A stretch of 20,877 nucleotides of DNA from a virus, in IMG/VR virus record IMGVR_UViG_3300030104_000669, positions 1 to 20,877 of that record, one strand, 5' to 3'. Positions 6,218-16,667 of the stretch are shown in pieces (the stretch's first letter is position 1; the number at the start of each line of letters is the position of its first letter). The position numbers and the translations under genes are program-made. The notes beneath the pieces were generated by a model. The model did no database searches. It was not told the DNA's origin and saw nothing but the letters and a program-made list of their open reading frames with translations.

Positions 6218-6382
6218 ATGGCTAAAGACATTAAATTATATAAAGATGGGAATGAAGTTACTATTAACGAAACTCAACTTGATAATTTTTTAGATTTAGG
6301 TTGGAAACAAGAAAAACAAGATAAACAAATAAGTAAAAAGGAAAATAAAAAATGGCAACACACTTCGGAAAAGAAGGAGTAG
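6218..6382 (+). CDS. 54-aa protein overlapping the tail tube start, unknown
   Basis: This small ORF runs from ATG 6218 to TAG 6380-6382 and overlaps the tail tube start by 31 nt. It begins MAKDIKLYKDGNEVTINE, then contains LDNFLDLGW, then a Lys/Gln-rich tail. The N-terminus resembles that of the 66-aa protein at 4279 in order of residues (DIKL, Gly, TI, Gln, GF/GW). No strong ribosome site is seen. It fills an otherwise empty 145-nt gap, and the conserved-looking beginning argues for a real gene. The last 20 or so codons lie partly inside the next gene and look less constrained. Confidence 0.5.
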   Translation: MAKDIKLYKDGNEVTINETQLDNFLDLGWKQEKQDKQISKKENKKWQHTSEKKE

Positions 6383-6738
6383 TAACTGCTGGTGGAACAG
6401 GTATTGGCGAACTAACAGGTTACACACTTGAAACAACTGCTGATGTTGTAGAAGATACTCAATTATCTGATAGCACAAAATCATTTGTAGCTGGAAGAAC
6501 ATCATTTTCAGGAACTTTAGAAATGAGTTATGATGAAACTGATTCTCCACAACAAACATTAACTGCTGGAACTACAATAGCTTTTATATTAGCACCAGAG
6601 GGTAATAGTTCAGGAGATGAAACTTTTACAGGTTCAGGGATTGTAACAGGAATGAGTGTTAATGTTTCACTAGATGGAATAACTACTAGATCAGTTACTT
6701 TTCAAGGCACAGGTGGATTAACAAGAGGAACTGTATAA
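6352..6738 (+). CDS. Major tail tube protein
   Basis: This 128-aa protein is rich in Thr, Gly and Ser with alternating strands, as expected of tail tube subunits that stack into hexameric rings. It begins GVVTAGGTGIGELTGYTLET. It then has VEDTQLSDSTKSFVAGR, SFSGTLEMSYDET, and ends VNVSLDGITTRSVTFQGTGG. Short tube proteins of about 130-180 aa with a central S-G-T-L-E strand are common in siphoviruses. It directly precedes the G/GT chaperones and tape measure, the fixed tail-module order. The upstream AAAAGGAAAATAAAAA is a usable ribosome site. It is likely one of the most abundant virion proteins. Confidence 0.8.
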   Translation: MATHFGKEGVVTAGGTGIGELTGYTLETTADVVEDTQLSDSTKSFVAGRTSFSGTLEMSYDETDSPQQTLTAGTTIAFILAPEGNSSGDETFTGSGIVTGMSVNVSLDGITTRSVTFQGTGGLTRGTV

Positions 6739-6747
6739 TCCTAATTT

Positions 6748-7101
6748 ATGTCAGTTATAGATAGAGTAAAAACTCATTTTGAGACTCTGCAAACTTTAAC
6801 TATTGAAGTTGAGGAGTGGAAAGACGAGAATGGTAATCCATCTATTTTTTATTCAGAGCCTTTAACACTTGAAGAAAAAAATATTATTTTTAAGAAATCA
6901 AATAATTTTCAAGACTTAAATGTTCTTGTTGATTTGCTTATAATGAAACTCCAAGTCAAGAATGATAAAGGAGAAATGATTAAAGCATTTGAACCATTTG
7001 ATAAAATTTCTTTAAAGAAAAAAGCAGACTCCAATGTTATTGCAACAGTAGCCAATAAAATCTTGCTAGACACCTCTTACGAGGAAGCCGAAAAAAAGTA
7101 A
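6748..7101 (+). CDS. Tail assembly chaperone G
   Basis: This 117-aa acidic/Lys protein is located between the tube and tape measure genes, the position of lambda gpG. It contains a conserved-like IEVEEWKDENG strand, LTLEEKNIIFKK, DLNVLVDLLIMKLQ and ends DTSYEEAEKK. The last three codons before TAA (7099-7101) lie on the slippery heptamer A_AAA_AAG. A fraction of ribosomes should shift to make the longer GT product. G is expected to coat the tape measure during assembly and is absent from the virion. The ribosome site before ATG 6748 is weak. Confidence 0.8.
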   Translation: MSVIDRVKTHFETLQTLTIEVEEWKDENGNPSIFYSEPLTLEEKNIIFKKSNNFQDLNVLVDLLIMKLQVKNDKGEMIKAFEPFDKISLKKKADSNVIATVANKILLDTSYEEAEKK

Positions 7102-7271
7102 GTAGCGACCCAGCTACAAGGTCGCTTTTAGTTGTAGCAGACAGACTTCACATCACAATTCAACAAGTTTTAGATATGCCTGTAAGCCATTATAATCTTT
7201 GGTTAGCTTACTTGAAAAAAGAGCAAGATGAGTATAAAAGTCAAGAGAGAATGGCTCAACATAGAAAATAA
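6748..7271 (+). CDS. Tail assembly chaperone GT (programmed -1 frameshift fusion)
   Basis: The fusion reads G codons to AAG (7096-7098), then re-reads base 7098 and continues in the -1 frame from GTA to TAA 7269-7271, giving 117 plus 57 residues, 174 in all. The T part contains LVVADRLHITIQQVLDMP and ends HYNLWLAYLKKEQDEY near its C-terminus. This matches the usual T-domain pattern of a short helix, then W-x-A-Y with acidic/Lys residues. It has no start codon of its own before residue 34 of T, so the frame is only reachable by frameshift. The tape measure gene follows 5 nt after. GT is expected to recruit the tape measure and tube protein; this is family knowledge from lambda and related phages. 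Confidence 0.85.
7092..7138 (+). promoter_or_regulatory. -1 frameshift signal: A_AAA_AAG plus H-type pseudoknot
   Basis: The heptamer is 7092-7098, directly before the zero-frame stop TAA 7099-7101. After a 5-nt spacer, stem 1 pairs AGCGACC (7104-7110) with GGTCGCT (7120-7126). The loop sequence GCTACAA (7113-7119) pairs with TTGTAGC (7132-7138) to form stem 2. Both stems are 7 bp without mismatch, with a 2-nt first loop and a 5-nt last loop. This is the classical layout of a -1 frameshift stimulator. Confidence 0.85.
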
Positions 7272-7276
7272 AGATA

Positions 7277-9124
7277 ATGGCAACACAAAAACTTAATATA
7301 GACATAGTAGCACGAGATAGGTCGAAACAAGCTTTAGGCAAATTACAAGGTAGTCTAGGAAGATTAAAACAATCAGTATTTAATTTAAGAAATGCCTTTA
7401 TTGGTTTAGGTGCTGGTCTTGTTATTAGAAATATAGTTAATACAGGAAAGCAAATTGAAAACCTACAAGTTCAATTAAAATTCTTATTTGGGTCAGCCCA
7501 AGAGGGTGCAAAAGCTTTTGATGAAATGGCAAAATTTGCATCTAAAGTTCCTTTCTCACTAGAAGAAATACAAGCTGGGTCTGGAGTATTAGCAGTTGTT
7601 AGTGATGATGCTAAAGAACTAGCAAATTTAATGAAAATTACAGGTAATGTTGCGGCAGTAACAGGTTTAGATTTTAAAACAACTGCGGAACAAATCCAAA
7701 GGTCATTATCTGCTGGTATCTCAGCCGCAGATTTATTTAGAGATAAAGGTGTTAAAGATATGCTAGGTTTTTCTGCTGGTGCGAAAGTATCAGTTGAAGA
7801 AACTGTAAAAGCATTTGAAAGAGTATTTGGAGAGGGTGGAAGATTTGATGGAGCAACAGATGAATTAGCAAATACATTATCTGGTACTTTATCAATGATA
7901 GGAGATAAAGTTTTTAACTTTAAAAGAGTTCTATTAGATGCTGGTTTCTTTTCACAACTTAAAAAACAATTTGGCGATCTTAATAAATCATTAGAAAAAA
8001 ACTCAGAAACAATGGACAAGATTGCAGTAACCATTGGAACAGTTTTAGCAGTAGGAGTTGAAAAATTAGTAAATGGTTTTAAATTTTTAGCAAAACACTC
8101 AGACGAAGTAGTTACCGCATTTAAAATTCTTATATCTTTTAAACTTGCCAAAATGTTTATTAACATTGGTAGAGCAATAATTCCTGTTGTAGCTGGTATG
8201 AGAGCCTTAGCATCATTAACAGGTGCTGGTTTAGTTTTAGTTGCGGCTTCTGTTGCGGCTACAACTGCTACTTTTTTTGCATTAGGAAAAGCAATAGATG
8301 ATGTAGAGAAAAAAATTAATTCTAATTTTGAAGCACAAAAAAAAGCATACGACCCAACTATGCTATTAGATCAACTTGGTAGCCATAAAAAAGTAACAAA
8401 AGAATTAGAAAAGCAAGAGAAAGTAATATTTAATATATTTGAATCAGATCGAAAACTTGTAAATGCAGTTAAAGAAAAAGCAACTATGGAAGAAGAAGTT
8501 TTAGAATCAATAAAAAAACAAAACAATCAATTCAGTATATCAAATGAAGTAGTAAGTGTTATAAATCAAGGAGTAAAAGGATTTGCAAACAGTATTGCTA
8601 GAGCAGTTGTTTTAGGAGAACAATTAAATGCTTCTTTTAAAGAATTAGCACAATCATTATTAATTACAATTATTCAAAAAACTATTGAACGAATAGCTTT
8701 AATGGGTATTGAAAAAATATTAGCAGAAACATTATTTAAAAAAGAAGCAGATAAAGAAAATATGATTAGAAAACAAAATACTAATCTTAAAAGACAAATT
8801 GCATTACAAGCAACTTTAAGTGCTATGTCAGGTGGTTTTGGTGGTTTCTTTAGTGGATTATTTGGAAAAGCATCAGGTGGTGCAGTATCAAAAGGTCAGC
8901 CTGTTGTTGTAGGAGAACGAGGTGCTGAAGTTTTTGTACCAAACTCATCAGGTCAAATAACACAAGCCGCTAGAGGAACAGGTGGTGGAAATGTTAATGT
9001 TAATTTTAATATTGAAGCCATAGATTCAAGTAGCTTTAATAGTGTTTTAGTAGAAAACAGAGGTATCATAACTTCAATAATAAATAATGCTTTAAACGAA
9101 AAAGGTAGGAGAGAATTAGTATAA
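7277..9124 (+). CDS. Tail tape measure protein
   Basis: At 615 aa this is the longest tail-interior protein. It starts with an N-terminal segment NIDIVARDRSKQALGKLQGS, typical of tape measures, followed by long helices. QVQLKFLFGSAQEGAKAFDE and LSAGISAADLFRDKGVKDML are TMP-like. A hydrophobic region spans about residues 293-338 (IIPVVAGMRALASLTGAGLV and onward). The C-terminus has FGGFFSGLFGKASGGAVSKG and GERGAEVFVPNSSGQI, a common tape-measure ending. Length suggests a tail near 90 nm at about 1.5 angstrom per residue. No lytic transglycosylase or peptidase domain is visible. It follows the chaperones and overlaps the next gene by TAATG. Confidence 0.9.
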   Translation: MATQKLNIDIVARDRSKQALGKLQGSLGRLKQSVFNLRNAFIGLGAGLVIRNIVNTGKQIENLQVQLKFLFGSAQEGAKAFDEMAKFASKVPFSLEEIQAGSGVLAVVSDDAKELANLMKITGNVAAVTGLDFKTTAEQIQRSLSAGISAADLFRDKGVKDMLGFSAGAKVSVEETVKAFERVFGEGGRFDGATDELANTLSGTLSMIGDKVFNFKRVLLDAGFFSQLKKQFGDLNKSLEKNSETMDKIAVTIGTVLAVGVEKLVNGFKFLAKHSDEVVTAFKILISFKLAKMFINIGRAIIPVVAGMRALASLTGAGLVLVAASVAATTATFFALGKAIDDVEKKINSNFEAQKKAYDPTMLLDQLGSHKKVTKELEKQEKVIFNIFESDRKLVNAVKEKATMEEEVLESIKKQNNQFSISNEVVSVINQGVKGFANSIARAVVLGEQLNASFKELAQSLLITIIQKTIERIALMGIEKILAETLFKKEADKENMIRKQNTNLKRQIALQATLSAMSGGFGGFFSGLFGKASGGAVSKGQPVVVGERGAEVFVPNSSGQITQAARGTGGGNVNVNFNIEAIDSSSFNSVLVENRGIITSIINNALNEKGRRELV

Positions 9125-15215: not shown

Positions 15216-16667
15216 ATGCCACTACCAACAATTCCATCTGGAAATGTAGCTTCAGCAACAGCTTCAACTGGTTTTGAAATAGCAAACTCAGTAAGACTTG
15301 CTGGTGATGCTTATTTTAATAGAACTTGTTCAAATGCTTATTATGATGAAGTAACATTTAATTTTTGGGTTAAAAGATCAACACTTGGAACAGATCAAGG
15401 ACTTTTTGGAAGAAAAGGAACAAATTCTACTGCTCATGGAACATTTTGTCATTTTACAACTGATGACGCATTATTAATAAATTTTAGAGATAGTGGTGGA
15501 ACATCGCAATATTATATAATTACAACAAAAAAGTTTCGAGACGTCAGTGCGTGGTATAATATCCATATACGAGTTGATGGACTAGATGGCACTCAAAATG
15601 ATCGTATTCAATTATGGGTAAACGGAGTTAGAGAAACAGTTTTTGATTTATTTAGCGCACCATCAAGCACAGGCTATCAAATAGCAACTTTTTTAACAAA
15701 TGGTAGTCAAGATTTTACAGTAGGTCGAAGTTTAAGATCACAGAATGATACATTTTATAATTTTAATGGGTATATGGCAGAATTTCATTGTTGCACAGGT
15801 CAACATTATGCTTGCACAGAGTTTGGGGAGTTTGACAGCGATAGCCCAAGAATTTGGAAGCCTAAAGAAACAAGTGGTCTTTCCTATGGTAACGATGGCT
15901 TTTATCTAGACTTCGAAGATTCTGGAGACTTAGATGATGACGAAAGTGGAGAAGGACATGATTTTACTTCAAATAGTTTAGCCGCAACAGATCAGGCGGT
16001 GGACTCGCCCACTAATAATTTTTGTACTTTAAATCCTTTATTTCTTAACTCTGGATTAACTTTTAGTGAAGGAAACTTAAATGTCGTTGCTAGTGATGCA
16101 AATTATCGTCATGCTGTAAGTTCTATGGCAGTACAAAATGGGAAGTGGTACGCAGAATTTAAGGCGGTATCTGGATTTAGTGGTGTTGATAAAAATGTTG
16201 GTATTTATAGAACTGACAATGCTTATTCAGCAACAACAGGATTAGGAAATTATACTTCAGGAACTACTTGGGCTTATGGTGCTACTGGAAATGTTAGAAC
16301 TAGCAATGGCAACAATGATACTGGCGAAGCTACATTTACAGATGGAGACATCATTTCGATAGCAATGGATTTAGATAATAACAAATTATATTTCGCAAAA
16401 AATAATTCATGGATTAATTCTGGCGATCCAGAATCAGGATCAACAGGCACTGGAGCTTATGCAATAGTTGCTGGAGATTTTTATCATTTTGCAGTTACAA
16501 CAATAAGTTCTGGCGGTGCGGCTTTATGGTCTTGTAATTTTGGCTCTCCAAGCTATGCTAATTCTTCAGATGCGGCAGATGCAAATGGATATGGTGCTTT
16601 TGAATATGCACCACCTAGTGGCTACCTTGCGTTATGCACAAAAAATTTAGGAAGTGATGGAGGTTAA
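15216..16667 (+). CDS. Lectin-like fibre protein (LamG-like plus SPRY-like domains)
   Basis: This 483-aa protein has two recognisable modules. Residues about 20-200 look like a concanavalin A/LamG domain: YDEVTFNFWVKRSTLG, then WYNIHIRVDG, IQLWVNGVRE and FTVGRS. Residues about 275-445 look SPRY-like: NGKWYAEFKAVSGFSGV, VGIYRTD, DGDIISIAMDLDNNKLYFAK and an NSGDPESG loop. It ends PPSGYLALCTKNLGSDGG. Such domains bind glycans or surface protein and fit host recognition. The frame ends at TAA 16665-16667 and the next gene's ATG follows with no gap in the same frame. In remembered marine relatives a similar GYLALCT segment runs directly into the next domain, so the pair may be one split protein. 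Confidence 0.75.
   Translation: MPLPTIPSGNVASATASTGFEIANSVRLAGDAYFNRTCSNAYYDEVTFNFWVKRSTLGTDQGLFGRKGTNSTAHGTFCHFTTDDALLINFRDSGGTSQYYIITTKKFRDVSAWYNIHIRVDGLDGTQNDRIQLWVNGVRETVFDLFSAPSSTGYQIATFLTNGSQDFTVGRSLRSQNDTFYNFNGYMAEFHCCTGQHYACTEFGEFDSDSPRIWKPKETSGLSYGNDGFYLDFEDSGDLDDDESGEGHDFTSNSLAATDQAVDSPTNNFCTLNPLFLNSGLTFSEGNLNVVASDANYRHAVSSMAVQNGKWYAEFKAVSGFSGVDKNVGIYRTDNAYSATTGLGNYTSGTTWAYGATGNVRTSNGNNDTGEATFTDGDIISIAMDLDNNKLYFAKNNSWINSGDPESGSTGTGAYAIVAGDFYHFAVTTISSGGAALWSCNFGSPSYANSSDAADANGYGAFEYAPPSGYLALCTKNLGSDGG
16659..16663 (+). promoter_or_regulatory. Strong ribosome binding site inside the preceding gene's last codons
   Basis: GGAGG lies 4 nt upstream of ATG 16668 and overlaps the last codons of the lectin-like gene. 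It supports independent initiation of the repeat-bearing protein immediately after the TAA, rather than a simple sequencing error or readthrough alone. Confidence 0.6.

Follow-up and report, generated by a model that had tools for sequence, protein, structure and literature searches.

A lambda-type −1 frameshift signal, very probably real, with a conserved hairpin and a lineage-specific second stem in the tail assembly chaperone gene of a pelagiphage

The locus described here raises the question of whether the end of a short gene, located between those for the tail tube and the tape measure, directs some ribosomes into the −1 frame, and which part of the RNA behind it matters for such a shift. 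The window, i.e., the whole stretch of DNA that was analysed, comprises the 20,877 bases of a virus record and has a GC content of 31.9%. A previous reading of its letters, referred to below as the sequence-only reading, had claimed the heptamer A_AAA_AAG at 7092-7098, a TAA stop codon, a 5-nt spacer and two mismatch-free 7-bp stems, all of which are present exactly as claimed. The codons GAA AAA AAG TAA at 7090-7101 place A_AAA_AAG in the 0 frame directly before the stop, and the spacer between the heptamer and stem 1 reads TAAGT (7099-7103, 5 nt). The claimed T-like domain without a start codon was also borne out, the −1 frame being open to 7268 with no ATG, GTG or TTG ahead of codon 7176. 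The features are as follows.

6352-6738, plus strand: major tail (tube) protein gene, the upstream neighbour expected for G (PHROGs major tail protein, E 4.1e-8)
6748-7101, plus strand: gene G, encoding the short form of the tail assembly chaperone with 117 aa (open reading frame; matches phrog_16513 once fused with T)
7081-7085, plus strand: GAGGA, Shine-Dalgarno-like, a possible 5' stimulator, 6 nt ahead of the slippery site; Glu codon GAG kept
7092-7098, plus strand: slippery heptamer A_AAA_AAG (from the letters), fixed in relatives except for 3 of 185 with AAA as last codon
7099-7101, plus strand: G stop codon TAA (from the letters), inside the 5-nt spacer; TAA or TAG in all relatives
7104-7110, plus strand: stem 1, 5' arm AGCGACC; DNA and pairing conserved
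7120-7126, plus strand: stem 1, 3' arm GGTCGCT; DNA and pairing conserved
7113-7119, plus strand: stem 2, 5' arm GCTACAA; lineage-specific, in 7 of 114 distinct junctions
7132-7138, plus strand: stem 2, 3' arm TTGTAGC; lineage-specific, in one subclade, accompanying every GCTACAA loop in this gene
7098-7271, plus strand: T, the extension read in the −1 frame, which adds 57 aa behind the slip, has its stop codon at 7269-7271 and lacks a start of its own (from translation); kept in hundreds of relatives and part of the phrog_16513 match
7277-9124, plus strand: tape measure protein gene, the expected downstream neighbour (PHROGs tail length tape measure protein, E 5.6e-12)

The nearest named relatives of the window are the Pelagibacter phages HTVC112P (80% DNA identity over 6300-7400) and HTVC111P, followed by HTVC026P and HTVC202P. 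The window belongs to a marine virus infecting SAR11 bacteria, which very probably makes a short and a long tail-building helper protein from one message through a ribosomal slip of one base; the cassette is very probably a genuine signal for −1 frameshifting in the lambda-type G/GT tail assembly chaperone gene of an HTVC111P-like pelagiphage. When G and T were searched separately, Pfam returned nothing useful and PHROGs gave weak matches only (to phrog_16513, E 0.3 with G and 0.04 with T); the 174-residue G-T fusion matches phrog_16513, a tail assembly chaperone family, with an E value of 5.8e-9 over profile positions 6-158 of 160. A search for G in bacterial genomes found none, and an Rfam search of the whole window returned no family. 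By tblastn the fusion also reaches the Rhodobacter phages RcSaxon, RcCronus and RcRhea (E 1e-4 for RcSaxon and RcCronus, KT253150 and KR935217), and in RcSaxon the annotation gives the tail assembly chaperone as a joined (j2) CDS; the fused product is thus homologous to known tail assembly chaperones. The RcSaxon and RcCronus junctions likewise combine a slip, a stop and a strong hairpin, although the slip is G_GGA_AAC directly before TGA, and the GC-rich hairpin is unrelated in sequence to that of the window. The predicted GT junction peptide lies around EAEKKVSSDPATR.

The gene order, i.e., tail tube, G, T frame and tape measure, and the −1 extension, which lacks its own start and whose frame is conserved across relatives, are those of lambda-type G/GT. 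The likeness to lambda extends to a −1 slip close to where G ends (3' end) and a small fraction of extended product (Levin 1993; Xu, Hendrix and Duda 2004, both as cited in PMC5009743), whereas the lambda slip is G_GGA_AAG (PMC7618472) and here A_AAA_AAG stands beside the G stop with a conserved hairpin downstream. The T gene is annotated in none of the four GenBank records of HTVC112P, HTVC111P, HTVC026P and HTVC202P, and at its position those of HTVC112P and HTVC111P show a hypothetical ORF on the reverse strand instead. A literature search on frameshifting in pelagiphages yielded nothing on this locus. The cassette is a well supported case of a familiar type of element that, as far as the records and papers examined show, had not been annotated in these phages before, and it adds the T portion that was missing from the tail assembly chaperone of a phage group widespread in the ocean.

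Relatives were gathered by their G and T proteins and not by junction sequence. The comparison covers 185 in-frame sequences, 114 distinct junctions and 52 representatives with less than 92% DNA identity; counts at synonymous sites in the representatives leave out loci fetched with the stem 1 pattern. All 185 in-frame sequences carry AAAAAAG or, rarely, AAAAAAA, an invariance that is somewhat built in because the heptamer partly served to recognise family members; main-family loci lacking it were not encountered in the unbiased set. A natural heptamer variant occurs in three loci (L254, L256 and L260), where the slip is GAAAAAAAATAG (A8, last codon AAA) and the loop is CCTCAACAA or CTGAAACAA. 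A second in-frame A_AAA_AAG is found at position 15527 of the window, in an open reading frame spanning 15216-16667.

The junction shares with E. coli dnaX the A_AAA_AAG heptamer, a downstream stem-loop, an upstream purine-rich Shine-Dalgarno-like stretch and, apparently, a single tRNA-Lys(UUU); in E. coli the last is the condition under which this heptamer becomes slippery (PMC5009743). Among the 30 tRNAs of a 1.3 Mb Candidatus Pelagibacter MAG, which has no recognised Ile or Ala tRNA and may differ from the host, there is one tRNA-Lys (anticodon TTT) and none with CTT. Here, unlike in dnaX, frameshifting yields the longer of the two proteins and the spacer contains the G stop; the upstream stretch stands 6 nt from the heptamer as compared to 10 nt in dnaX, and the stem has 7 bp as compared to 11 bp (PMC5009743). 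The GAG of the GAGGA stretch is present in 50 of the 52 representatives, GAG making up 18% of the window's Glu codons. Stimulatory upstream Shine-Dalgarno sequences for −1 shifts lie 9-14 nt away (PMC5009743), and GAGGA, with 6 nt to the heptamer and 10 nt to the AAG codon, is a possible 5' stimulator whose spacing is short if measured to the heptamer.

Stem 1 is a perfect 7-bp helix in the window and begins 5 nt past the heptamer, within the 5-9 nt at which a selected stem-loop is found in dnaX-type cassettes. Over the 114 distinct junctions, all seven pairs form in 95, six in 18 and three in one. Among the representatives its codons show no synonymous change (AGC in 51/51, AGG in 52/52 and TCG in 52/52), and these codons account for approximately 6%, 6% and 3% of the Ser, Arg and Ser codons of the window, respectively. 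The alignment across relatives that the sequence-only reading had proposed as a search for compensatory changes gave wobble pairs and one such change in stem 1: in several lineages GAC has become GAT, turning C-G into U-G wobble pairs, and one locus (L282) combines GAT with AGA in a compensatory double change from C-G to U-A. Variation in stem 1 is so low that there is hardly any true covariation, and the conservation of this stem reflects strong purifying selection, not rich covariation. The lowest-energy pseudoknot-free fold of 7099-7145 has −12.0 kcal/mol, as compared to −10.4 kcal/mol for stem 1 alone, and includes a competing nested hairpin (GTAGC 7102-7106 with GCTAC 7113-7117) that a ribosome positioned on the slip site would be expected to block. 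The junction with three pairs, L037 (from 3345), has kept the slip and the T frame and lost the 3' arm of stem 1; it resembles a recombinant involving another T gene. Two further entries (L013 and L286) represent the same contig, in which one base is missing from the stem 1 loop, breaking the T frame and lengthening the hairpin; the missing base is probably an assembly error.

On the basis of these comparisons, we consider it highly likely that this SAR11 phage uses programmed −1 ribosomal frameshifting of the lambda G/GT type. At TAA, most ribosomes would stop and release gpG (117 aa), while a minority, delayed by the hairpin of stem 1, which follows after 5 nt, and perhaps also by the Shine-Dalgarno-like GAGGA, would move one base back on A_AAA_AAG and produce gpGT (174 aa), the apparently single tRNA-Lys(UUU) of the host presumably re-pairing better with AAA. 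The gpG protein would then coat the tape measure protein, and the T part would recruit the tail tube protein, a division of labour that is established for lambda. The sequences themselves show the conserved frames, the slippery site, stem 1, the family match and the gene order; we infer this division, the ribosomal nature of the slip and its rate.

The conservation of stem 1 could have another purpose, for example in an antisense RNA. In that case its constraint would partly serve a minus-strand RNA that starts from a promoter in T (about 7188-7238) and ends at a terminator-like element composed of stem 1 and the complement of the A run. A terminator-like match on the minus strand (7126-7104), a promoter-like match (7218-7189) and the strong synonymous constraint on CAT TAT AAT ... 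TAC TTG AAA in T, which is not seen in the sister lineage lacking stem 1, are consistent with this. However, the U run begins 6 nt past the stem, unlike in a good terminator, promoter-like matches in the window are near chance (101 versus 93), and stem 1 is located exactly where a frameshift stimulator is expected, such that we regard an antisense role as very improbable.

Two features of this region are recorded in their own right. Within T, at 7188-7238, CAT TAT AAT, TTA and TAC TTG AAA are fixed in about 51 of the 52 representatives, in the stem 1-bearing family only, and TATAAT is present on both strands. Read on the minus strand, 7126-7090 resembles a terminator, with stem 1 as the hairpin and the complement of the A run as a U run that comes late, and together with 7218-7189 could frame a short antisense RNA.

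The sister lineage of HTVC026P, HTVC202P and their relatives (56 distinct junctions) keeps both frames with GTAAAAAAAAACTAA, an A9C slip, and stable downstream structure was not detected in HTVC026P and HTVC202P (z −1.1 and −0.6, respectively). As this lineage keeps the fusion without the stem, either the fusion probably predates the hairpin or this lineage has lost it, and the longer A run may take the place of the hairpin. The slips of both pelagiphage lineages have counterparts in the unrelated Paenibacillus larvae phages, for which a chaperone frameshift has been proposed at AAAAAAG, or AAAAAAC in one phage; the corresponding passage of PMC6003738 does not describe a stimulatory structure. 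Homopolymeric runs of this kind (A7 in the window, A8 in L254 and L260, A9 in the HTVC026P class) would also suit transcriptional slippage, by which one A is added to some mRNAs and no ribosome slips, and the retention of T by the A9C lineage without a stable structure fits such a process. Against it, A7G is short for polymerase slippage, which moreover needs no hairpin at a fixed ribosomal spacing, and yet stem 1 is fixed at synonymous sites and the heptamer sits in the exact X_XXY_YYZ register; transcriptional slippage is accordingly given very little weight next to the ribosomal shift.

As to the downstream structure, the sequence-only reading had placed a full H-type pseudoknot at the centre of the cassette, and it could indeed be the selected stimulator, the right gpG:gpGT ratio needing both stems. 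In the window it consists of two perfect, interleaved helices of 7 bp each; loop 1 has 2 nt, loop 3 has 5 nt, and no base separates the stems. No other perfect 7+7 bp H-type arrangement with short loops occurs in the window on either strand, and 60 letter-shuffled windows contained one in total; as a geometric find, the helix letters are beyond chance. Stem 2 stacking adds about 12 kcal/mol, the pseudoknot energy being a sum of stacking terms only. Across stem 1 the groove span is 25.7 A, which the 5-nt loop 3 can bridge; across stem 2 it is 16.3 A with 7 bp, for which the 2-nt loop 1 is slightly short, and 12.3 A with 6 bp, for which this loop is about long enough. These spans render the knot physically plausible. 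A scan for the GCTACAA loop that left the downstream sequence free found no member of this gene family without TTGTAGC (7/7 distinct junctions), and in-register pairing exceeds that of permuted partners (z 4.1 in the whole family, 2.9 without the subclade and 2.4 in representatives).

The comparative evidence argues against such a role. Relatives that keep T and lose a stem without compensation, which the sequence-only reading had said would tell against the pseudoknot, are the rule for stem 2, absent from 107 of the 114 distinct junctions, and the HTVC026P/HTVC202P lineage lacks both stems. The coding sequence itself eases stem 2, because codons for Ala-Thr, as in the loop, pair easily with codons for Val-Val-Ala, as further downstream, and 12.7% of synonymous redraws encoding the same amino acids give a Watson-Crick run of at least 7 pairs. 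In the rest of the family the loop and downstream letters vary, their longest Watson-Crick run being 2-5 pairs, and an energy test without the subclade was null (88 of 500 permuted partners as good); the in-register excess remaining there and in the representatives (z 2.9 and 2.4) can be reached through relatedness alone. The carriers of stem 2 form one subclade, in which they are interspersed with junctions bearing another loop and a CAA/CAG (RSQ) codon haplotype, and in a G+T tree built without the junction the stem 2 state changes at least five times, together with the neighbouring codon haplotype. These linked changes suggest that both arms, of a single origin, were exchanged as a recombining block, so that the seven stem 2 junctions represent few independent events.

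Selection of the full pseudoknot is therefore unlikely, and of the cassette as claimed, the G/GT −1 frameshift with a selected stem 1 holds, and the pseudoknot as its working core does not. The conserved stimulator would be the hairpin, as in E. coli dnaX, while the pseudoknot is at best a lineage-specific extra outside the conserved machinery. In the lineage of the window, stem 2 may nevertheless pair and be active. A precedent cited in PMC5009743 is Lactobacillus phage A2, where a pseudoknot assists −1 frameshifting on bacterial ribosomes in a virion gene, there for a major virion protein and not a tail assembly chaperone. The relatives constitute a natural series of cassettes around one protein, with a hairpin only, a hairpin and a pseudoknot, or a longer A run and no stem, which is suited to testing the contribution of the stimulator. 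Within the subclade it is conceivable, though rather doubtful, that a pseudoknot allele (GCTACAA with TTGTAGC) and a hairpin allele (RSQ) are swapped as a block by recombination, setting different gpG:gpGT ratios matched to tail length or host.
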